The translations under genes and the position numbers were made by a program. Positions 270 through 12,721 of a DNA stretch of 64,000 nt are shown here, one piece after another. Position 1 is the stretch's first letter, and each line of letters opens with the position of its first letter. The notes below the pieces were generated by a model, which had not been told where the DNA came from, did not search any database, and saw nothing but the letters and a program-made list of their open reading frames with translations. The DNA comes from Bernardetiaceae bacterium (lineage in GTDB: Bacteria; Bacteroidota; Bacteroidia; Cytophagales; Thermoflexibacteraceae). The stretch covers positions 1 through 64,000 of the forward strand of contig JANWVT010000006.1 in the NCBI GenBank assembly GCA_025056255.1, in the 5' to 3' direction.

Positions 270-1577
270 TCATCTCTTTGGCTTTACGTTTACTGCGTTC
301 TCTGTTTTTTGGTTCTTTTTCTTGTCAAAACCTTCTTCTAAAAAGAAAGTTACTTTTTGACCTTGTTTTGCAAGTTCGGGCTTTGCTTTGAAATTTCGCA
401 ACTGAAAGTAGTACGACTTTTTGTTCTCTGTTTCTATAAAACCTGCTTTTCCATTTGGAAGTATGCATTTTATAGTTCCTGTTAATTCTGTTTGGTTACT
501 ATATTTTAATTTTTCCCAAAGTTGCTTTAATTCTCTTTCAAAATCTCTCGAATTAACTTTTTTTGTAGTGTCAATTTGAAATTTATTGATGAGATTTTGC
601 AAATCGTTATCTATTTTCCACTTGTTAGCCTTGCGAATTTGATATATAAGTTCAATGTGCTTTTTGGCTTCTTCGTTTTGATTGTTACTAATTAAAATTT
701 CAGACAAGAGTTTATACACATTTAGTTTTTTATCTACATCTCCAGGGCTCAAAGCACTATCAATAGCAAATTTTAGTGCTTGCTCGTGGTTTCCTTGCTC
801 AAAATAAATCTCCGCTATTTCCTTGTAAATAAACCATTCATTTTTACGTTTTAGCAAAGATTTTAGTTGCTCTAAGGCTTTTTCGGGCTGTCCCAAACCT
901 TTGTAGGACAAAGAAATACGCCTTGCAAACCAAATTTCATTGTTATAATGAAAGTTTTCGAGTGTATCTAATGCCTTTTGGCTTAATTCTATACATTCAT
1001 CATACAAACCTTTTTCAAGCAATGCTTTTGTACGCCACATAAAATATTGTTCTTTTTTAGAGGCTAACTCCCTTATTTTTCCTTCATTATCTGTAAACGA
1101 AAAAGGTTTATCGTCTAAAATTTCAAAATTTAGTTTTTCTGTCCATTCTAAAACCTTATCAGTTGGATAAATGGCTTTATTGTTGAGATACTCTAAAATT
1201 TTGAAAACAGTTTGCGTGTATGGAGAATATGGGTCATCTTGTTTTGATAACTTCAAAATAGCTTCCCCTGCCTTTAAGAATTTAGATTCATCATTAACTT
1301 TTTCAACCGCAATTTCTGTATAGTAAATACACCAAGCATAAACACTTTTAATATTCTCAAAATCAGGTTTTAGTTTATATACTTCTCTACAAATATCTAA
1401 AGACTTTTTATACTCCTTTTGCTGTTTTAGGCAAAAAGCATACGCCCACCCTTCCCATTCATTACAATTTTCTCGGTGTTCTTCCCAAAGTTGCTTGTAA
1501 AGAGGCAAAGCTTCAGCATACTTTCTGGCTCTACGAAATTCCTCTGCCTGTTTTTTTATGGTTTGTATGTCTTGCAT
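270..1577 (-). CDS. TPR protein with C-terminal cold-shock-like domain
   Basis: A 435-residue, probably cytoplasmic protein with no signal peptide. Residues about 5-330 are helical and read as degenerate tetratricopeptide repeats (for example 'KQLWEEHRENCNEWEGWAYA' near the start and 'GNHEQALKFAIDSAL' further on). The last 70 residues (from about 360) resemble a cold-shock or S1-like nucleic-acid-binding fold, with 'GTIKCILPNGKAGFIET' and 'YYFQLRNF' in the places where cold-shock domains have their RNA-binding aromatics. The start codon overlaps the stop of the upstream helicase gene in a TAATG arrangement, so the two are almost certainly one transcript with coupled translation. The gene is AT-rich compared with the rest of the window. 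TPR plus cold-shock suggests a scaffold that also binds single-stranded nucleic acid. That role is inference; no named family is recognised with confidence. Confidence 0.72.
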   Translation of the reverse strand: MQDIQTIKKQAEEFRRARKYAEALPLYKQLWEEHRENCNEWEGWAYAFCLKQQKEYKKSLDICREVYKLKPDFENIKSVYAWCIYYTEIAVEKVNDESKFLKAGEAILKLSKQDDPYSPYTQTVFKILEYLNNKAIYPTDKVLEWTEKLNFEILDDKPFSFTDNEGKIRELASKKEQYFMWRTKALLEKGLYDECIELSQKALDTLENFHYNNEIWFARRISLSYKGLGQPEKALEQLKSLLKRKNEWFIYKEIAEIYFEQGNHEQALKFAIDSALSPGDVDKKLNVYKLLSEILISNNQNEEAKKHIELIYQIRKANKWKIDNDLQNLINKFQIDTTKKVNSRDFERELKQLWEKLKYSNQTELTGTIKCILPNGKAGFIETENKKSYYFQLRNFKAKPELAKQGQKVTFFLEEGFDKKKNQKTENAVNVKPKR

Positions 1578-3718
1578 TATTTCAAATTTCCGATTAGTGA
1601 AATAATTTCATTTAGCAACTCAATAGAAGTGCTTTTTTGCGGTTGTGGAACAAAACGATTAAACTGTTTTTTTCCATTATAGTAAAAATCAATTTCAGCA
1701 ACGAAACTACCTTTTTTGAAAATGTATTTTTGTAACCATTGGTTTTGCTTAATATCAATAACGCTTATATTCTGTGTACTTACTTTTGATAAAACAAAAT
1801 CGTAAAAATCTTGCAAAAAAGGCTCTGCAAAATCAAATGTTTTGACTTCTATGGTGTCAATATCTATTTTTGTGTCAAGAACAATCGTCTTATCGACAAG
1901 GATTTGCAAATGTTGAACGAGTGAATTCGCAAACGCTGAGTTAGTAGTCTTTTGAATACTACTGATTTTGTTTTTGGCATTGTAATCTATCTTTAAAACA
2001 CATTTTTCAGTACCTTTTGAAAAGGTATAGTGTTCACACCAATTAACATGTCTGATGCTATCAATGGTAATTCCTTCATCTTTAATCAAATCAAAAACAG
2101 CATAGAAAATGGCTTTTAAGTTTTCTTGTTCGTCTGAAAAATCAAAGGCTAATTCTGTTTGTAAAATTTCAGGTTTTAAAACTATCAAATCTCGTCTTGG
2201 TGTAAAATTCTCTATTTTCGGTGGTTTTAGGCTACTTCCAATTCTAAAATGTGGTTCGTCAAGTGTATATAAAACTTCTTTTGCCCTTGTAAGCGCGGTG
2301 TAAAGCCAACGAAAATAGGAAGCATTAAAATAGCCCATTGCAGTTTTGCAATCTATAAATGCACGTTTCCATTCTCCACCTTGCGCCTTGTGGCAAGTTA
2401 TTGCGTATCCAAATTTGATACGCAAAGCATTAAAATACTTATCTGTTCGCAATGCATCTTTTAGTTCTTTCGTACCTGCTTTTAGGAATGGATTACGAAT
2501 TTTGAAGTCAACGTACAACGCCTTTAACTCGTCTGAACTCAAATCATTTTCTTTAGAATATAAAACATTTTCAATGATTTTACACTCAATGTCATAAGTT
2601 TTTTCATATGTATCTTTGAATTGAATAGTTACATTTCGGAAATGCAAGGGAACTTTTATTTCTACTACGTTCCCTGATTTGTTTTTGCGTTTTAGGGTGA
2701 TATTGCGTGTTTCGTTTGTAGGGCTTACTTCCTGTATAATACCAAAATCACCATTCAATAATTCAATTTGGTAATTATAGTTATTGCTAACCAAAATTAT
2801 CCTGTCGCCTTTTGTAATTGTGCTTTGATTTGGAAAAAAATGACTTCTCACAAAGTCGTTGTATTCTTTGACTGATGAATTAGAATAGGCAATAATTATA
2901 GTTTCGTCATCAATTTGGTTTCCGCAAGCTTGTAAGTAAGTTTTTAGTAAGTCTTGTTGTTGAACGGGTTTTGTATCTGCAAAATTAGTTTCAATATCAA
3001 TTTGATTGAAAACATTGCTTTTAAGTGAAGCCCGAATTTTGGTAGCATTATGCAAAATTCCGCTATCTTTTTGCTGTCTTACCACTTCTGTTAATTCATA
3101 ACTGCTTACGGAAACTTGATATTTTTCACGCAAATACTGTTCGTTGAGTGCAGGGGAAAAGTTCATATTTACAGGTGGTAACTGTGCGTTATCTCCTATA
3201 AAAATGATTTTCTTTTTATGGTCGTTGTTGTCAAAATTGATGTACCTTAAAAGGTCTTTGAGCAAGAAGCCTGAGCCAAACCGAAAAAACTCATCTTCCG
3301 AATACATATCGGAAATCATAGAGGCTTCGTCTATAATATAAATCGTATTGGCTGGGTCTTTGTTATTTTTGAGGTCGTAATAAAATTTAAAGGTTTCTGT
3401 TCCGTCTGTGTTTTTAGTTTTGAACTCCTTGATGTCTCTGTTTGAATAAATGATTTTGTGGATAGTATAAGCCTTTGATTTTGTTCTTTGTGAAATGACT
3501 TTTGCAGCACGTCCTGTTGGTGCAGCCAAAACAAAATGTCTATTAACAGATTTGAGAAAATCTGTTAAACCTTTCATCATAAAAGTTTTTCCTGTACCTG
3601 CATAACCTTTCAATAGAAAGCAAAAAGTCCTATCTTCTAAAAATTCGTTTAAGTTTATTAGAAGTTCCTGCTGTCCGTTGGTTAGACTGTAACCTTTAAA
3701 AGTTTCAAATATTGTCAA
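1577..3718 (-). CDS. RecD/AAA_30-type superfamily 1 DNA helicase with duplicated C-terminal domain
   Basis: 713 residues. Superfamily 1 helicase motifs are in order: Walker A 'GYAGTGKT' at residues 38-45, Walker B 'IYIIDEASM', motif III 'GDNAQLPPV', and the C-terminal UvrD_C_2-type motifs 'AITCHKAQGGEW' and 'YTALTRAKE'. This layout fits RecD-like, Pif1-related bacterial helicases rather than UvrD or Rep. After the helicase core (from about residue 540) come two similar units, about 550-610 and 651-713. They share the pattern I..I..(N/Q)..W....Y.F.KG....(V)...ID, so the tail looks like a tandem duplication of an unknown small domain. The gene starts with ATG 38 bp downstream of a decayed integrase and overlaps the following TPR/cold-shock gene by one base (TAATG). 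It is AT-rich: one 60-base line inside it has 21 G+C. It probably unwinds DNA in repair or defence; the exact role is not known. Confidence 0.85.
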   Translation of the reverse strand: MTIFETFKGYSLTNGQQELLINLNEFLEDRTFCFLLKGYAGTGKTFMMKGLTDFLKSVNRHFVLAAPTGRAAKVISQRTKSKAYTIHKIIYSNRDIKEFKTKNTDGTETFKFYYDLKNNKDPANTIYIIDEASMISDMYSEDEFFRFGSGFLLKDLLRYINFDNNDHKKKIIFIGDNAQLPPVNMNFSPALNEQYLREKYQVSVSSYELTEVVRQQKDSGILHNATKIRASLKSNVFNQIDIETNFADTKPVQQQDLLKTYLQACGNQIDDETIIIAYSNSSVKEYNDFVRSHFFPNQSTITKGDRIILVSNNYNYQIELLNGDFGIIQEVSPTNETRNITLKRKNKSGNVVEIKVPLHFRNVTIQFKDTYEKTYDIECKIIENVLYSKENDLSSDELKALYVDFKIRNPFLKAGTKELKDALRTDKYFNALRIKFGYAITCHKAQGGEWKRAFIDCKTAMGYFNASYFRWLYTALTRAKEVLYTLDEPHFRIGSSLKPPKIENFTPRRDLIVLKPEILQTELAFDFSDEQENLKAIFYAVFDLIKDEGITIDSIRHVNWCEHYTFSKGTEKCVLKIDYNAKNKISSIQKTTNSAFANSLVQHLQILVDKTIVLDTKIDIDTIEVKTFDFAEPFLQDFYDFVLSKVSTQNISVIDIKQNQWLQKYIFKKGSFVAEIDFYYNGKKQFNRFVPQPQKSTSIELLNEIISLIGNLK

Positions 3719-3756
3719 GGTTTTACGGTTTAGGTTCTTAAAATATCACACAACTA

Positions 3757-4730
3757 TTACTTATACGAGCTTTTGTTCGCATTTTTGTCTTGCATCAGCG
3801 CGTCTAAAGGGCTTTGTACCTTCTGAATCGTTCGGTTACTTACGTGCGTGTATATCTCAGTAGTTTTAGAGCTATTGTGTCCTAAAAGCTCTTGAATGAT
3901 ACGAATGTCGGTACCTGCCTCATGCAGATGCGTTGCAAAACTGTGTCGCAGACTGTGGAAACTCACATCCTTGCGAATTTTTGCTTCTAATTTAGCCTGT
4001 TGAAAAATCTTTTGCAAGCTCCTTGTACTAACTAAGGCGAAGAATAGCATCATACGACGTTTTTTTATTTACCTTATGTCCGAAGTCAATGATGCGTAAA
4101 TTCACTACCTCACTTGCATGAAGCCCAGCAGCATATCCCATGAACAACATGGTTTTGTGTTTGAAGTTTTGTACCGCATCAAATAGTGCTAAAACCTCTT
4201 TGGGCGACAATACATTGGAAAAATACATTGGAAAGTTTAGTTTCACACCTCAGAAATGGCAGGTAAAACTCCCAATTGTTGAGATGCCGCATCTGTATGT
4301 AGTAGAAGCGCATGGCACAAACGGTGAGACCACTCGTTTTTAACTTTCATCGTCAGCCAGCTCTGCGCGGCTTCTGGCGAAATGGCATCGGGATGTGCGG
4401 CATCATGCGCCTGACAAAATTCTAGGAATGCTACACGGTAGTTTTTGATGGTAGCATAACTGTAGCTTTGCAACATTACACATAAGCTCTGAAAATAGCT
4501 TGCAGATGCTCAGGCAATGCTAACAGCCAAAAATCTACTTCCTTTGCCTGATTACCTTCACGAACAACCTGCTCTAAAACTTTTTCATCAACCTTTACCG
4601 ATATACCGGCAGCAGTCAGGCGCTCTACAAGTCCTTCTCGGATGGAATTTTGATTGAGTACGCACCAGCATTTTCGCCCTTTATCAGAATAACGGGTTTT
4701 AGTCATTTTGATAATTTCGTATGCCTGCAT
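3757..4730 (-). pseudogene. Tyrosine recombinase (phage/XerD-type integrase), multiply frameshifted and internally deleted
   Basis: Four overlapping minus-strand frames together encode one integrase. Frame 1 (4730-4476) gives the N-terminal wing. It breaks at a TAATG near 4476. Frame 2 (4476 to about 4320) gives the core-binding start ('YSYATIKNYRVAFLEFCQAH'). The next stretch is readable only in another frame ('AMRFYYIQMRHLNNWEFY'), and the reading then shifts again to 'NVLSPKEVLALFDAV' (4246-4028). The final piece (4053-3757) holds '[11 protein letters not shown]', '[16 protein letters not shown]' and hence the His-x-x-Arg, His and nucleophile Tyr. The first catalytic Arg is replaced by His ('GLHASEV' where the family has GLRxSE(V/L)). 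About 60-70 residues carrying the catalytic Lys strand are missing between 'NLRIIDFGHK' and 'STRSLQKIF'. The N-terminus also looks cut. It is clearly inactive. The cargo genes immediately downstream on the same strand suggest it once moved this block. Confidence 0.88.
4209..4234. repeat. Perfect 13-bp tandem duplication inside the integrase pseudogene
   Basis: Positions 4209-4221 are repeated exactly at 4222-4234 (unit aatacattggaaa). Removing one copy restores the minus-strand reading 'KLSNVLSPKE', which joins the two frames on either side. The duplication is therefore the direct cause of one frameshift in the recombinase, most simply by replication slippage. Confidence 0.9.
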
Positions 4731-5104: not shown

Positions 5105-7174
5105 TTACAGTTTAATGAACAGCAGCGAGAAGTCGTCGCTGTTGTTTTCATTTTTGGCAAAAGTAAGCAGTTTTTCTTCGGCTTTTGATAATAGCTGCTC
5201 AGCGGAAAGTTGGTAGTGTGCTGCACAAAACTGACGCAGCCGCTCAAAGCCAAACTCTTCTTGTTGACTGCCCGCGCGCATTTCTACTACTCCATCGGTG
5301 TAAAGTACTATTAAGTCGCCATGTTGATAACGCGTAGAGGAAGCAACAATATGTTCGGCAAATTTTTTACTGCGCATAATGCCTAAGCCTATTCCTTTGC
5401 TTTCTACAAGATGCGCCTTGCCTGTAGCGCTGTCCACATATATGAGCGGGCAATGTCCAGCACGCGCATAACTGAACATCTGTTTTTCGGTGTCCACTAC
5501 TAAGTAAATAGCCGTGATAAACATTTGAGGAGGTAAGCAGTTAGTCAATGCTTGGTTAGCATGAATCATAAACACTTCGGGCGACAAGTCTAACGGAGCA
5601 AGGCTTTGAAAAATGCCCTTCATTTGCGCCATATGAAAAACAGCCGAAGTGCCCTTGCCGGCTACGTCGCCCAAAATAAAAGCAATTCTCGTAGAAGAAA
5701 AGCGATAATAATCGTAGAAGTCGCCCCCAATGAGCTCCGGAGAGTTGGTTTTGGCAATTACTTGCAAGTTGCCTTGTCGGAAGTTAAGGGCTGGTAATAG
5801 CGCTTCCCGCACTTTTTTGGCGGCGGCAATTTCTGCCTGAAAACGCTCACTATCCACCGCATCGGCTAATAGCAACAGGTTGTCTAGTGCCAAAGCTGCC
5901 TGAGCTGCATAGTGGTTAAGTGTAGAATGAGGCAATAGTACGTTGTCGAAAATACCCGCGTGCTTAGCAAGCAGCACTAAAATACCGACCAACTTGCTGC
6001 GGCGCTGCAACGGAATAATCAAAATAGTGGCAAAAGGGGCGTATTCGGCTGACCAAGGCAGGTTTTTGCCAATGAACTTTTTGGTAGTGTCCCAGTTGTA
6101 TCCTGTTTGGCTAATGGTCTGTTTAATGTAGCGTGCCTCAGGTTCAAAAATATGCTGACCTATCAAACGGTTTCTACTAGGTATTTCTAACCAAGCTGCA
6201 TCTGCTCGAAAGGTATTTATGGCTATATCAAGAATTTTTTCAAAAAACTGCTCTTCATTGCGAAATTCATGTGCAAGCAGCCGATTTAATGCAGAAAGTT
6301 CAGAAAATTTGCGCTCAATAATATTAGAGGTGGGCAAATTAAACAGGATTGTCAAAAAAGAGAATACGCTATAAATGGCAATAAAAATGAGCATAGCCGA
6401 TATAAAAAGGCTTTCTGTAAGGTCGAAGTAGCTTTCGCTGCCATTGAGGGGCTCTTGGCGCAAGGCAAAAAAATAAGCTAAGCATACGAACAATATCAAA
6501 AATACCAGTAGGGCAAACCATTTTTCTCTGTAGCGCAACAAGGCTATCCAGTTGAGGTTAAACGATGCCATTAGGGCAAGCAGCCATGAAAAACCAATCC
6601 ACGCGCTTTCTATCCAGTCAAAAAATTCGTAGCGATGCAAATATGGGTGCGGCACAGCATGAAAAAGTAGGCTAAAAAACAAAAAGCCTTCAAAAAATTT
6701 CCAAATAGCCACTAAATAAGGCGACCTGCCGAAAAAAATAAGTTTGCGCCAAATGGTGTATACAAATAACAATACCCCAATAACAGCTGCAAACTCAATT
6801 TTGTAAATCCACACGGGTTTGATATACTGGAAAACAATAGTTTGTAGAAGCTCTTCGTTGGGATGAAACAGCAAAACAGAAATGCCTGTGCCAGTTGTAA
6901 CAACCCAAAAAATTTTAACGAGCTCGCCTACAAAACTGCCTGCTTCGCTGTAATCGGAGAAGTTGCGTTGTAGCAGGTCTAAGAACAGCAATATGATAAA
7001 ACCGTTGAGCAAAAACGACTCCAAAGCATAGGAATAAGAAGGCGTGTTTTGTGGAAAACCTGCCATTTGGGGAGGAATTTCCCACACTATCCAACAAAAA
7101 GCAGCTATCAGCAAGAATTTGTTGGCAACTAAAAAATGTATTATCTGCTTACGAAGACCCGATGCCGGTATCAC
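5105..7174 (-). CDS. Membrane-bound GAF-SpoIIE (PP2C-type) serine phosphatase
   Basis: 689 residues. The first roughly 285 residues contain about eight hydrophobic membrane segments. A GAF-like sensor follows (about 300-440), then a SpoIIE/RsbU PP2C domain to the C-terminus with the metal-binding 'GGDFYDYY', 'GDVAGKG' and 'LYTDGV' motifs. Such proteins dephosphorylate anti-sigma-factor antagonists or similar switch proteins, acting on the inner face of the membrane. The start is GTG at 7174, four bases after the stop of the upstream methyltransferase; no earlier ATG fits, and the first membrane segment begins within 20 residues. It is the last gene of a four-gene operon that also encodes a SixA-like phosphohistidine phosphatase. 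No anti-sigma kinase or STAS antagonist gene is visible nearby, so its substrate is unknown. Confidence 0.88.
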   Translation of the reverse strand: MIPASGLRKQIIHFLVANKFLLIAAFCWIVWEIPPQMAGFPQNTPSYSYALESFLLNGFIILLFLDLLQRNFSDYSEAGSFVGELVKIFWVVTTGTGISVLLFHPNEELLQTIVFQYIKPVWIYKIEFAAVIGVLLFVYTIWRKLIFFGRSPYLVAIWKFFEGFLFFSLLFHAVPHPYLHRYEFFDWIESAWIGFSWLLALMASFNLNWIALLRYREKWFALLVFLILFVCLAYFFALRQEPLNGSESYFDLTESLFISAMLIFIAIYSVFSFLTILFNLPTSNIIERKFSELSALNRLLAHEFRNEEQFFEKILDIAINTFRADAAWLEIPSRNRLIGQHIFEPEARYIKQTISQTGYNWDTTKKFIGKNLPWSAEYAPFATILIIPLQRRSKLVGILVLLAKHAGIFDNVLLPHSTLNHYAAQAALALDNLLLLADAVDSERFQAEIAAAKKVREALLPALNFRQGNLQVIAKTNSPELIGGDFYDYYRFSSTRIAFILGDVAGKGTSAVFHMAQMKGIFQSLAPLDLSPEVFMIHANQALTNCLPPQMFITAIYLVVDTEKQMFSYARAGHCPLIYVDSATGKAHLVESKGIGLGIMRSKKFAEHIVASSTRYQHGDLIVLYTDGVVEMRAGSQQEEFGFERLRQFCAAHYQLSAEQLLSKAEEKLLTFAKNENNSDDFSLLFIKL

Positions 7175-10081: not shown

Positions 10082-11656
10082 CTATTTTCTGTTTTCGTTT
10101 TGAAGGGCTAAAAGGGCAGCTACAGCCTTTCCCGGTTGAATGAGTTTGCCTGTATCTTGCGCATCGGGAACTTCTGCGGCGGTTTGCTGCAATAGTTGAT
10201 AGGCTTGCTCTGCTGTTAGGTTGGGTTGAATAGCTTTCATAACTCCTAACAAACCTGCTACATAAGGAGTAGCCATAGAGGTTCCACTAAGCACCTTGTA
10301 CTCGTTATTAGGAAAAGTAGCATAAATATTGACACCGGGTGCAGCGATAGGCATAGCAAGGTTGCGCACATGGTTAGAAAACTCTGCTTTGTGTAGTTGT
10401 TCATCTAAGGCTGCCACTGCAATAATTCCTTTCACGTTAGCAGGGGCAAAGTTGGCAGCGTCGTCGTTGGCATTACCAGCAGCAGCTACTACAATAGCAC
10501 CTGCCTGATGTGCATATCGGATAGCTTCTGCATAGGCACGCTGTTCGTGGTCAAATGAGGGACCGCCTAGTGAGAGTGAAATGACATCTGCTCCTTGGTC
10601 GGCTGCTTCTATGATGCCGTTGATGATGTCTTGTTGCGTACCACCGCCAAAACTGTTCAATACGCGAATGGAAGTAACGCGCACAAAATTGTTGTTGGGG
10701 GCAAAAGAAGCAATGCCTTTGCCATTGTTGCTTACGGCTGCTGCAATGCCAGCGCAGTGTGTGCCATGTCCTAATGGGTCAGTGTCGTATTGGGGGTTAG
10801 TAGAGTGAAAATTAGCTTGAAGGTCTTCGTGTGTGCCATCCACGCCTGTGTCTAAAATAGCGATGCGTGCCATTTTTTGGGGTTGTATCTTGCTTAGTAG
10901 TGCGAACAGTTCTTGTATTTGCATCGCACCAAAGCCCCACAGTTGGGCTACGCCGGGGTCGTTTAAGCCAAAAGAGGGTTGTTTGCCACGGGTAGGTGTA
11001 GCGGTGTTGGGTAGCTCAATTTTCATTGCCTCATTGGCTTCGAAACCATCTATTAGTCCGGCAGATTGGAATGCTTGGGCAATATCTTCCCACTCGGGCA
11101 AACGTTCGCTCGGAATATCAACTACGTAAAATTCATCTAACGAAGTATCATTGGGGCGTGCTACATTGGGGAAGGCAGGGCGACACATCACACCAAGTGT
11201 TTGGGCTTTTGCCAACAGTTCTGAGGGGGGATGTTTCGCGTTTAAGTCGATAAGTAACTCAGCATTATCTGCCAAATTAACAGCTAGCTGAGGCTGTTCC
11301 GTTTCTTGAGTGATATTCTTTGTGAGCCATTCCCAACCGTTAGTAGCTATGTCGAAGAAAAAGAACTTGATAGCCAGTAAGATGGCTGCAATGATGCTAA
11401 ACCCAATTTTGGACTTAGTAACATAGCGATTGAACAGTAGCAAAATGCTAATGAACACAGCTACATCTATCGGCAGCATTAGAAATAGCTTGATGAGCAG
11501 TGCTGTGTCTTCAAAATATAAGCCCAGAACATACAACAACAGCGAAATCCAAAAACTTTTGCCAAAAAATGAAGCCGAAGCTAAGCTTTTCGTTTTCAGG
11601 AAAAGCCAAAAGATAGCGGAAGCCAATACAGCAATAAATCCAATCGTGTAAAGCAT
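10082..11656 (-). CDS. Membrane-anchored subtilisin-like (S8) serine protease
   Basis: 524 residues. The N-terminal 115 residues hold about four hydrophobic membrane segments. A roughly 100-residue linker or propeptide-like region follows, then an S8 catalytic domain from about 255. The catalytic triad is complete: Asp269 ('AILDTGVDG'), His297 ('GHGTHCAG') and Ser460 ('GTSMATP'). There is no cleavable signal and no sorting domain, so it is expected to stay in the inner membrane with the protease domain on one side. That differs from the secreted subtilase at 12760. A short OB-like gene and a LytTR response regulator gene lie just upstream on the same strand. Its substrate is unknown. Confidence 0.88.
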   Translation of the reverse strand: MLYTIGFIAVLASAIFWLFLKTKSLASASFFGKSFWISLLLYVLGLYFEDTALLIKLFLMLPIDVAVFISILLLFNRYVTKSKIGFSIIAAILLAIKFFFFDIATNGWEWLTKNITQETEQPQLAVNLADNAELLIDLNAKHPPSELLAKAQTLGVMCRPAFPNVARPNDTSLDEFYVVDIPSERLPEWEDIAQAFQSAGLIDGFEANEAMKIELPNTATPTRGKQPSFGLNDPGVAQLWGFGAMQIQELFALLSKIQPQKMARIAILDTGVDGTHEDLQANFHSTNPQYDTDPLGHGTHCAGIAAAVSNNGKGIASFAPNNNFVRVTSIRVLNSFGGGTQQDIINGIIEAADQGADVISLSLGGPSFDHEQRAYAEAIRYAHQAGAIVVAAAGNANDDAANFAPANVKGIIAVAALDEQLHKAEFSNHVRNLAMPIAAPGVNIYATFPNNEYKVLSGTSMATPYVAGLLGVMKAIQPNLTAEQAYQLLQQTAAEVPDAQDTGKLIQPGKAVAALLALQNENRK

Positions 11657-11670
11657 GGCAAAGAATATTT

Positions 11671-11892
11671 TTAGCTCAAAATACTAAATCGGATAACTTC
11701 CACAGGTGTTCCCCACATAAAAATAGACACAGTTTCGGCTACTGGTTGTGCTTCTATGTGTACCTCCAAACCGCTTTTCTGCAACTCGGCAGGTGGATTG
11801 ACAATGCGCCACTTGCGTCCTCCATCATCAATAACGCCCCAGCAGCCAGTAGCAAGGTGCTGGTAAGTAATTTTTCCTTTAATTTGAATCAT
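11671..11892 (-). CDS. Small conserved-looking protein, possible OB-type barrel
   Basis: 73 residues when started at the internal ATG at 11892. The open frame extends to a TTG at 11985, but that leading peptide is basic and not domain-like. The sequence has short alternating strands ('IQIKGKITYQ', 'GCWGVIDDGGRKWRI', 'LEVHIEAQPV', 'IFMWGTPVEVIRF'), the pattern of a small beta barrel binding an unknown partner. It lies 14 bp upstream of the membrane subtilase and downstream of the response regulator on the same strand, so it is probably cotranscribed. No function can be assigned. Confidence 0.55.
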   Translation of the reverse strand: MIQIKGKITYQHLATGCWGVIDDGGRKWRIVNPPAELQKSGLEVHIEAQPVAETVSIFMWGTPVEVIRFSILS

Positions 11893-11989
11893 CTTTTTGG
11901 GCAGCGGTATATTGGGTAAACGTTTTTTACGGGGAAATAGTTGGCAAACTATCCAAGGGTGGCTTGCGACAAAGCTGGCAAGCAAGCAG

Positions 11990-12721
11990 TTACATAATTT
12001 CCAATTTTTCCATCAGTTTGGAGCGATAAGTTTTGCCAATCGGAATGCGTTTCCCGTTGATAATCAATTCATCGTCTTCTACGGCATCAATGCTTTGCAA
12101 ATTGACAAGAAACGAGCGGTGAACGCGTAAAAACAACTCCTCGGGAAACTTTTCTTCTACCACTTTCAGTGGATAATTTACAATGAATTTACCTGTGCGC
12201 GTATTCAGTTCTGAATAAATATCGCTAGCCTCTACCCAGAGCACCTCACTAATCCGCACTTTTTCCAGTCGGGTGCGGGCTTTTACAAAAATGGATTCGT
12301 GTGGAGCATAGCGCGTTTGGATTTGCTTGGGTGCAGGTCGCCCCGATTTAACAGCATGCTGATAAACGGATAGTTCTATGGTAGAGCGCAGTGTTGCTTC
12401 ATCGAAAGGTTTGACTAAGTAAGCAGCAGGTTGGGTAAGCTTGGCACGATGTAGTGTAGCAGTATCTGCTTGTGCAGTCAGAAAAATATAAGGAATATCG
12501 GATTGTTGCAAAGCAGATGCCGTTTCAATGCCATCTAAGCGTCCGGGCAGGTCAATATCTAAGATAGCCAAATCTACCTTGTCAATTTGAGCGATGTGAA
12601 GCAGTTCTTCGCCTGTTGTTGCACATCCAACAATGGTGTACCCCATGTCTTCTAAGGTGAAGCGCAGGTTTTTAGCCGTTACCTCATCGTCTTCGGCAAT
12701 CAATAGGCGAATGGCAGACAT
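11990..12721 (-). CDS. LytTR-family response regulator
   Basis: 243 residues from the ATG at 12721; a TTG 42 bp earlier would overlap the upstream protease gene and adds no domain. Residues 1-120 are a CheY-like receiver ('LLIAEDDE', the phospho-acceptor Asp in 'AILDIDLPG', 'FLTAQ', and Lys in 'AYLVKPF'). Residues about 140-240 are a LytTR DNA-binding domain ('LWVEASDIYSELNT', 'FLRVHRSFLVNL', 'IPIGKTYRSKL'). Such regulators pair with LytS-like histidine kinases; none is adjacent. It sits between two subtilase genes on the same strand, so it may be cotranscribed with them or may regulate an unlinked target. Confidence 0.9.
   Translation of the reverse strand: MSAIRLLIAEDDEVTAKNLRFTLEDMGYTIVGCATTGEELLHIAQIDKVDLAILDIDLPGRLDGIETASALQQSDIPYIFLTAQADTATLHRAKLTQPAAYLVKPFDEATLRSTIELSVYQHAVKSGRPAPKQIQTRYAPHESIFVKARTRLEKVRISEVLWVEASDIYSELNTRTGKFIVNYPLKVVEEKFPEELFLRVHRSFLVNLQSIDAVEDDELIINGKRIPIGKTYRSKLMEKLEIM

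Follow-up and report, generated by a model that had tools for sequence, protein, structure and literature searches.

We analysed the first 64,000 nucleotides of contig JANWVT010000006.1 (C74) of a Bernardetiaceae bacterium (Bacteroidota), hereafter called the window. The window begins at base 1 of this contig, and the genome comprises 3.39 Mb on 107 contigs. Near this end lie two overlapping genes, encoding a helicase and a tetratricopeptide repeat (TPR) protein, that together are a TOTE conflict system by their domains. From sequence comparisons we consider it highly probable that this TOTE pair is a cassette in a decayed integron-like array that lacks the integron integrase IntI and whose own recombinase family captures cassettes. 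In gene order the pair comes first after a decayed tyrosine recombinase gene, and an attC-like site follows it; arrays of such sites go, in our comparison, with an XerA-related tyrosine recombinase family without the IntI-specific insertion. The new part is the carrier, i.e. a TOTE pair in an array with a recombinase that lacks the IntI domain.

Domain content places the gene pair among the TOTE conflict systems

The helicase matched the Pfam families PF13604 (5e-25), PF13538 (7.5e-16) and, in two stretches, PF22721 (TBP-TOTE, 9.1e-37), as well as the PADLOC model PDC-M16A over residues 1–709 (E = 2.2e-279). Helicase motifs, among them Walker A, D130-E131, G175-D176 and T477-R478, were invariant in 11 aligned sequences, its own included. 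The TPR protein matched PF22860 (DUF7017, 3.2e-14), TPR_19 (1.9e-12) and the PADLOC models PDC-M16B (6.3e-11) and PDLC01170 (3.2e-106 over residues 1–432), the latter described as a TPR repeat protein fused to a cold shock-like domain (OB-fold). The helicase stop codon overlaps the start of the TPR gene as TAATG (1575–1579) with one base in common, as an earlier note on this DNA had observed. That note proposed the pair as the best candidate for an undescribed system, which was not borne out. The matches to PF22721, PDC-M16A and PDLC01170 identify it as TOTE and as the PADLOC candidate PDC-M16, and the kind of system is therefore already known.

TOTE stands for TPR, OB, TBP and Effector (PMC12458937, which cites Aravind, Iyer and Burroughs 2022). 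The window pair has in common with TOTE systems a TPR protein, with a probable OB/cold-shock-like part, TBP-like domains and a candidate effector, and PF22721 is named after TOTE; it differs in its compact two-gene form, in which an SF1 (superfamily 1) helicase is itself fused to the TBP repeats. The system in PMC12458937 shares the TPR-CSD (cold-shock domain) and TBP parts but contains a YprA-like helicase and a NERD-type nuclease, neither of which is shown by the two window proteins. The helicase matches PDC-M16A along its whole length, whereas its partner matches PDC-M16B more weakly and is nearer to PDLC01170; the best PDC-M16A model has 208 additional N-terminal positions. Plasmid TOTE helicases from E. 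coli, Sulfurospirillum and Pseudomonas veronii are extended at the N-terminus by about 210–260 residues, including DUF4145, and this extension is missing from the window helicase. TPR partners in two other loci (L005 and L006) match S1CSD-TOTE-1, and S1CSD-TOTE-2 falls just above (L005) or just below (L006) the cut-off. A Pfam search of both window proteins found no nuclease or primase domain; the SF1 helicase, with its motifs intact, is the sole effector candidate within the pair and would be the effector.

Each TBP-like repeat was modelled as helix–four strands–helix, and predicted local distance difference test (pLDDT) values for the block were mostly 81–89. Fold comparison of the repeats (1592–2119) gave the N-terminal domains of the E. 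coli RNase toxin RnlA as the best match. The second repeat aligned over 77 residues with a Z of 8.2, and both repeats together over 147 residues with a Z of 6.9 and a root mean square deviation of 12.6. No TBP was among the best 50 matches of the second repeat. We take the predicted likeness to RnlA as a hint only; a Z near 8 may reflect a common arrangement.

The attC-like sites share a covarying predicted structure

Sequence similar to the roughly 150 bp that follow the TPR gene recurs behind genes of contig C96, once on contig C34 and four times in locus L007, which belongs to a different genome with its own TOTE pair. RNAalifold analysis of 10 copies gave a common structure of 21 pairs, 15 of them with compensatory change. 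A covariance model (R1) was built from these 10 copies, the window copy being one of the seeds. Of 13 genomes scanned with R1, 11 had sites; the highest number in one genome was 24, and some sites lay 1–2 kb apart on one strand. The counts are lower bounds, 150 candidates having been scored per genome; within that number G395 and G435 gave no site.

In an alignment of 65 sites fitted to R1, 88.1% of cells were paired compared with 63.8% after shuffling, and covariation was 0.572 compared with 0.164 after shuffling and 0.046–0.084 when the structure was slid by 1–3 columns. The three positions of the AAC/GTT core were paired in 59, 59 and 63 of the 65 sites. An alignment-free arm-exchange test used 54 of these sites, 11 being left out as partial, of odd length or weak. 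For the 44 non-seed sites the average energy was −23.0 kcal/mol with their own arms and −14.6 kcal/mol with exchanged arms, a difference reached by none of 10000 permutations; the own arm was the single best partner in 10 of the 44 and in the top tenth in 33. The site set shows the paired R''/R' and L''/L' arms and the unpaired centre by which attC is recognized. Sites start a median of 7.5 bp behind a same-strand stop codon, and 37 of 44 tested lay within −20 to +60 bp of one, compared with 74 of 2000 random positions. An Rfam scan of five loci found no family for the element, its two hits being microRNA models below their gathering scores, and R1 did not match class 1 integron cassettes on an E. 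coli plasmid.

Neighbouring sites fit as cassette boundaries

The recombination point of integrons lies inside the 3' core of the site. The 5' arm of a site should therefore match the beginning of the cassette to which it belongs, and within an array this beginning is the tail of the site before. Complementarity at all 6 bases between the 5' arm and its own cassette start was seen in 19 of 30 neighbouring pairs, compared with 2.3% in an all-against-all control and 0 of 42 comparisons within the same site; loci with a single site were left out. Arrays L178 and L179 fitted in 7/7 and 3/3 pairs, respectively, and in L007 the TOTE pair lies between two attC-like sites with a 6/6 fit.

In the window, GTTGTGTGATAT is found 2 bases behind the recombinase stop codon, where GTTAGCTGATAT was expected; GTT and 6 of 9 positions agree. 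As the 5' end of the TOTE cassette this attI-like junction is suggestive only. Eight of 10 other loci had a junction with 7 or 8 of 9 positions, and L215 and L224 had none; each locus was tested with several candidate arms, and in L225 an unrelated arm scored 8 as well. In Lutibacter (L005) a TOTE pair lies 235 bp behind an intact recombinase relative, with a partial site at the contig end (E = 0.037).

The recombinase family stands at the head of the arrays

The earlier note had described a tyrosine recombinase remnant 38 bp upstream of the helicase gene as a dead integrase. The distance is correct (the remnant ends at 3757) and the gene is indeed broken, into pieces at 3757–4053, 4028–4246, 4243–4476 and 4476–4730, with the PF00589 match (1.8e-21) in the first; yet its family stands at the head of integron-like cassette arrays. 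Searched apart from the others, the first piece was 58–63% identical to array-type family members, one of which heads the eight-site array L178.

R1 sites (E < 1e-4) were found near members of this family in 11 of 15 loci, the window and L178 included. The remaining four were L223, with a partial site at the contig end (E = 0.024), and L216 (itself broken), L218 and L222, which end at most 0.9 kb from the recombinase. Eight of the 15 loci came from genomes that had not been scanned before (G398, G399, G400 twice, G402, G403, G405 and G406); six had sites and two ended. None of eight control loci with weaker, Xer-like matches (29–34% identity, same genome set, 152.5 kb) had a site. A single-stranded DNA-binding (SSB) protein gene adjoins the recombinase gene in six of the 15 loci, identified by Pfam in L178 and L218 (as L187) and by first residues in L219, L220, L221 and L226.

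A canonical IntI was sought as the recombinase of the arrays and was not found: none of 21 genomes gave a match to the integron-integrase model TIGR02249 above its cut-off, not even those with 16, 21 and 24 sites. In an alignment with IntI1 from a Klebsiella oxytoca plasmid, the IntI-specific insertion of about 44 residues was missing from all nine relatives; this absence is read from the relatives, the window remnant having no piece that covers the region. The spacing of the catalytic arginines was 92–93 residues in 13 of 14 members (one was unmatched by the search pattern), compared with 134 in IntI1 and 135 in IntI4 (2a3v). By sequence the closest solved relatives are XerC-like 4a8e and XerA 5hxy, from which the family differs by its attC-like arrays and an N-terminal extension. 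Scores with NF040815, which NCBI names 'site-specific tyrosine recombinase/integron integrase', were 211, 219 and 231 (cut-off 220). One long member has a HARP-like stretch in the extra N-terminal region, below the Pfam cut-off.

Like IntI/attC integrons, the arrays have R''-L''-L'-R' site order, an AAC/GTT core, cassettes mostly in one direction and, at the head, a recombinase and a candidate attI-like junction. The recombinase sets them apart: it is without the insertion of about 44 residues, does not reach the IntI cut-off, is extended at the N-terminus and is often encoded beside an SSB gene. The IntI-specific domain is a defining feature of IntI and is required by IntegronFinder (PMC9668308). 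We therefore use the term integron-like: judged by sequence, the element looks and is arranged like an integron and fails one defining test, the IntI domain.

The pair lies in AT-rich DNA, probably an island between core genes

The earlier note's description of an AT-rich block was confirmed. The G+C content of 270–3718 was 0.323, whereas windows of the same length in 5105–64000 (n = 222) had a minimum of 0.391 and a mean of 0.451 (sd 0.018). Codon usage agreed, G+C at third codon positions (GC3) being 0.28 in both genes of the pair and 0.42–0.46 in three core genes compared.

In all three congeners the phosphatase-like gene (5105–7174 in the window) adjoins a block of lipoprotein-like and folP-like genes (names by eye). 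In the genome studied here this block is on contig C96 (145712–146830) and not beside the island on C74. Beyond the block are the last 5.75 kb of C96, mostly of 33–37% G+C, which contain a VWA-like gene (by eye, no Pfam match), a methylase gene with an MvaI/BcnI-type endonuclease gene, a second methylase gene with a BsaWI-type endonuclease gene, and three more attC-like sites. Most simply, a single insertion of 10.8 kb or more would separate the two core genes and have been split by the assembly, so that C96 and C74 would be joined. Judged by first residues, a pair nearly identical to the BsaWI-type restriction pair of C96 is found at another chromosomal place in congener G397 (L182:5873–7881), with an attC-like site behind it.

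The pair is sparse but conserved as a pair

At E 0.001, 16 of the 395 phylum genomes searched had a PF22721 match (above the curated cut-off in 13), representing 13 of 171 genera, and DUF7017 was encoded directly downstream on the same strand in 11 of these 16. Open reading frames were inspected in 13 of the 16 phylum loci (all except the genome studied here, G148 and G216). In 12 of the 13 a TPR-position gene lay at most about 20 bp from the helicase stop codon, and in the thirteenth the contig ended. DUF7017 confirmed this gene in 10 of the 12; L251 and L252 were assigned by position only. In a second set of genome contigs the TPR-position gene followed the helicase gene in 10 of 10 TOTE loci, nine directly and one (L003) after one extra gene, with Pfam being run on the partners of L003, L005, L006 and L013; L012, L014 and L015 were dropped from the TOTE counts because the TBP part was unmatched or only a fragment was present. 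The three plasmid helicases from Sulfurospirillum, E. coli and Pseudomonas veronii overlap the next gene by 4 bp, and DUF7017 was found in both partners tested.

The pair was absent from all three other genomes of the genus. Among 39 relatives a full-length match was found only in the genome studied here and in G404 (C181), which is probably the same record as L004. Helicase relatives occurred in 66 plasmid records at 80% or more of the query, and no phage record had a place covering 80% of the helicase. The two genes are thus adjacent in nearly every relative inspected and are neither mostly separate elsewhere nor a fixed core locus, and the earlier note's view of the pair as one nucleic-acid-processing module carried as cargo is supported, the two genes being conserved together and linked to a recombinase. 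In L003 the gene between the helicase and TPR genes (10114–12531) encodes an 805-residue protein that matches the cold-shock domain twice and is otherwise a long stretch without assignment, possibly a swappable effector.

Weighing the explanations

Several results weigh against a TOTE cassette in an integron-like array. The window's own attC-like site has a degenerate 3' arm, the sole testable neighbour pair of the genome (L143) fits at 4/6, and the attI-like junction of the window fits at only 6/9, a score that 42 of 2414 GTT sites in the window equal or exceed. The fit was imperfect in 11 of the 30 neighbouring pairs, namely in L215 (0/3 fitting), L184 (1/3) and single pairs of L007, L143, L185, L217, L153 and L173. 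The two sides of the island are on different contigs. Only 5 of 24 TOTE loci (the window, 10 from the genome-contig set and 13 from the phylum) show attC-like sites: the window, L007 (on both sides), L006 and L008, which are near-identical and have a site upstream only, and L005 (partial). The three plasmid TOTE loci had no R1 site. The cassette context is one of several for TOTE loci, as most of those elsewhere have no attC-like site. Structure models give little help, the recombinase model being unusable (pLDDT 49) and the helicase core too poor to use, with the confident parts being above all the TBP-like repeats. The OB fold of the window's TPR protein, which the earlier note had labelled cold-shock, is below the Pfam cut-off (CSD, E = 0.018), and the label is supported by the PDLC01170 match.

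Intergenic repeats are common in bacteria, and the sites could be ordinary repeats of this sort, or repeats resembling miniature inverted-repeat transposable elements (MITEs), in a defence island with an unrelated island integrase. Four copies folded singly with DNA parameters were not clearly better than shuffled sequences (lowest z −1.8) and gave no significant hairpin; the structure was detected only from the alignment. This explanation is nevertheless very improbable in view of the cassette fit of neighbouring sites, the covariation of both arms, the association with a single recombinase family but with none of the Xer-like controls, and the position of the sites right behind stop codons. 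Alternatively, the sites could be attC served in trans by a canonical IntI, as in clusters of attC sites lacking integrases (CALIN), the adjoining recombinase being only a frequent neighbour. Integrase-less attC clusters are common and usable in trans, and integrons are recorded in Bacteroidota (PMC8618304, PMC9668308). We regard this as improbable, although somewhat less so than repeats, since TIGR02249 gave no match over its cut-off even in site-rich genomes, and since the sites lie downstream of the recombinase gene and on its strand, with the attI-like junction between them in 8 of 10 other loci.

The pair itself could be a housekeeping or plasmid-maintenance helicase module and not a defence system. 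Its relatives occur on plasmids, it is assigned to defence from its genome context and the name of its family, and a literature search, with subscription journals mostly outside its reach, found no experimental test of any TOTE system. This is unlikely, and the most credible of the three alternatives: the pair belongs to a named conflict system (PMC12458937) and a PADLOC candidate, its distribution is sparse, and defence genes lie beside such sites. Nine of 10 proteins encoded beside attC-like sites matched PADLOC models at 1e-10; they were hand-picked as defence-looking, so the fraction is no rate. The matches were AbiL (twice), an OLD/Gabija-like ATPase, an AbiL/AriA-type ATPase, AbiEii, ThsB, TmtA, and type IIG and type II methylases. 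The earlier note's suggestion of a possible defence role is supported, and the pair is probably defence-related. In L007, the cassette adjoining the TOTE cassette (5459–6936) contains the gene of a ThsB-type TIR protein, overlapped by a second gene.

Proposed mechanism and significance

If the TOTE pair is a cassette of an integron-like array, the recombinase would act on the attC-like site in its folded, single-stranded form and thereby capture circular cassettes. Like IntI, it would join the AAC/GTT point to an attI-like GTT that follows the recombinase gene or the SSB gene. The SSB protein and the N-terminal region of the recombinase would have a role in recombination. An SSB neighbour is plausible because SSB opens folded attC hairpins and IntI counters this (PMC8946536). 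The TOTE proteins may act jointly on invading nucleic acid, to which the TBP-like repeats and the OB fold would bind; the TPR part would hold the complex, and the SF1 helicase would serve as an ATP-driven effector.

Anti-phage systems were reportedly described in 2025 in Vibrio and mobile integrons. Phage resistance is a known cassette function (PMC8618304), and Bacteroidota are among the integron-carrying groups (PMC8618304, PMC9668308). Among the papers listed on integrons in Bacteroidota or with defence genes, no title or beginning of an abstract described an array run by a recombinase without the IntI domain. Integron detection as described in PMC9668308 depends on that domain and would therefore report such platforms, at most, as orphan clusters of sites. 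Should the recombinase move cassettes, the capture of hairpin sites would be independent of the IntI domain, and what replaces the domain becomes a direct question. It would also explain the movement of TOTE between distant Bacteroidota, and the arrays would be a place to look for uncharacterised defence genes. More tentatively, with the balance leaning slightly against it, Bacteroidota may have a separate class of integron, with an XerA-derived recombinase that has an N-terminal HARP-like region and a dedicated SSB protein in place of the IntI-specific domain; this class might be a reservoir of defence cassettes, TOTE included, and may have fed genes such as blaVEB to plasmids of other phyla.

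Table 1. Positions of the TOTE pair, its surroundings and related plasmid genes (window coordinates unless a locus is given)
Feature	Position	Strand	Description
Helicase gene	1577–3718	minus	713 residues, TTG start; SF1 RecD/Pif1-like with C-terminal tandem TBP-like repeats; TOTE helicase, PDC-M16A
TPR gene	270–1577	minus	435 residues, ATG start; DUF7017, C-terminal cold-shock-like OB fold; PDLC01170 / PDC-M16B
Two TBP-like repeats in helicase	1898–2119 and 1592–1825	minus	PF22721 matches
attC-like site, ends TOTE cassette	116–260	minus	145 bp, 3' arm degenerate; covariance model R1, E = 7.1e-23
attI-like junction, possible 5' end of TOTE cassette	3743–3754	minus	GTTGTGTGATAT; GTT + 6/9 fit
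Remnant of array-type tyrosine recombinase	3757–4730	minus	Four pieces; 58–63% identity; Phage_integrase 1.8e-21
Core gene bounding the island	5105–7174	minus	Phosphatase-like (by eye); neighbour genes in 3/3 congeners
Plasmid TOTE helicase, E. coli	L238:5239–8178		Extra N-terminal DUF4145 part
Plasmid TOTE helicase, Sulfurospirillum	L237:5377–8196		Extra N-terminal DUF4145 part
Plasmid TOTE helicase, Pseudomonas veronii	L239:5383–8181		Extra N-terminal DUF4145 part

Relatives of the recombinase on plasmids

On plasmid NZ_CP041688.1 of Chryseobacterium sp. SNU WT5, five sites follow the recombinase gene (WP_143853951.1) and share its strand. The Chryseobacterium plasmid array also encodes a group II intron reverse transcriptase (L235:18738–20679), roughly 0.5 kb ahead of an attC-like site. 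A related C. oryzae plasmid with the same recombinase family had no site (best E 0.41), and a pattern scan of viral contigs did not confirm a relative of the recombinase.

On IncC and IncA plasmids, a truncated family member of 203 residues is encoded 110 bp upstream of blaVEB-3 (L255:5626–6348 and L256:5626–6348, the latter differing by one base). R1 found no site at these two loci. The L255 fragment is 53–59% identical to six of seven family members, 45% to the seventh and 31.5% to IntI1, and may point to a Bacteroidota integron as the source of the gene.

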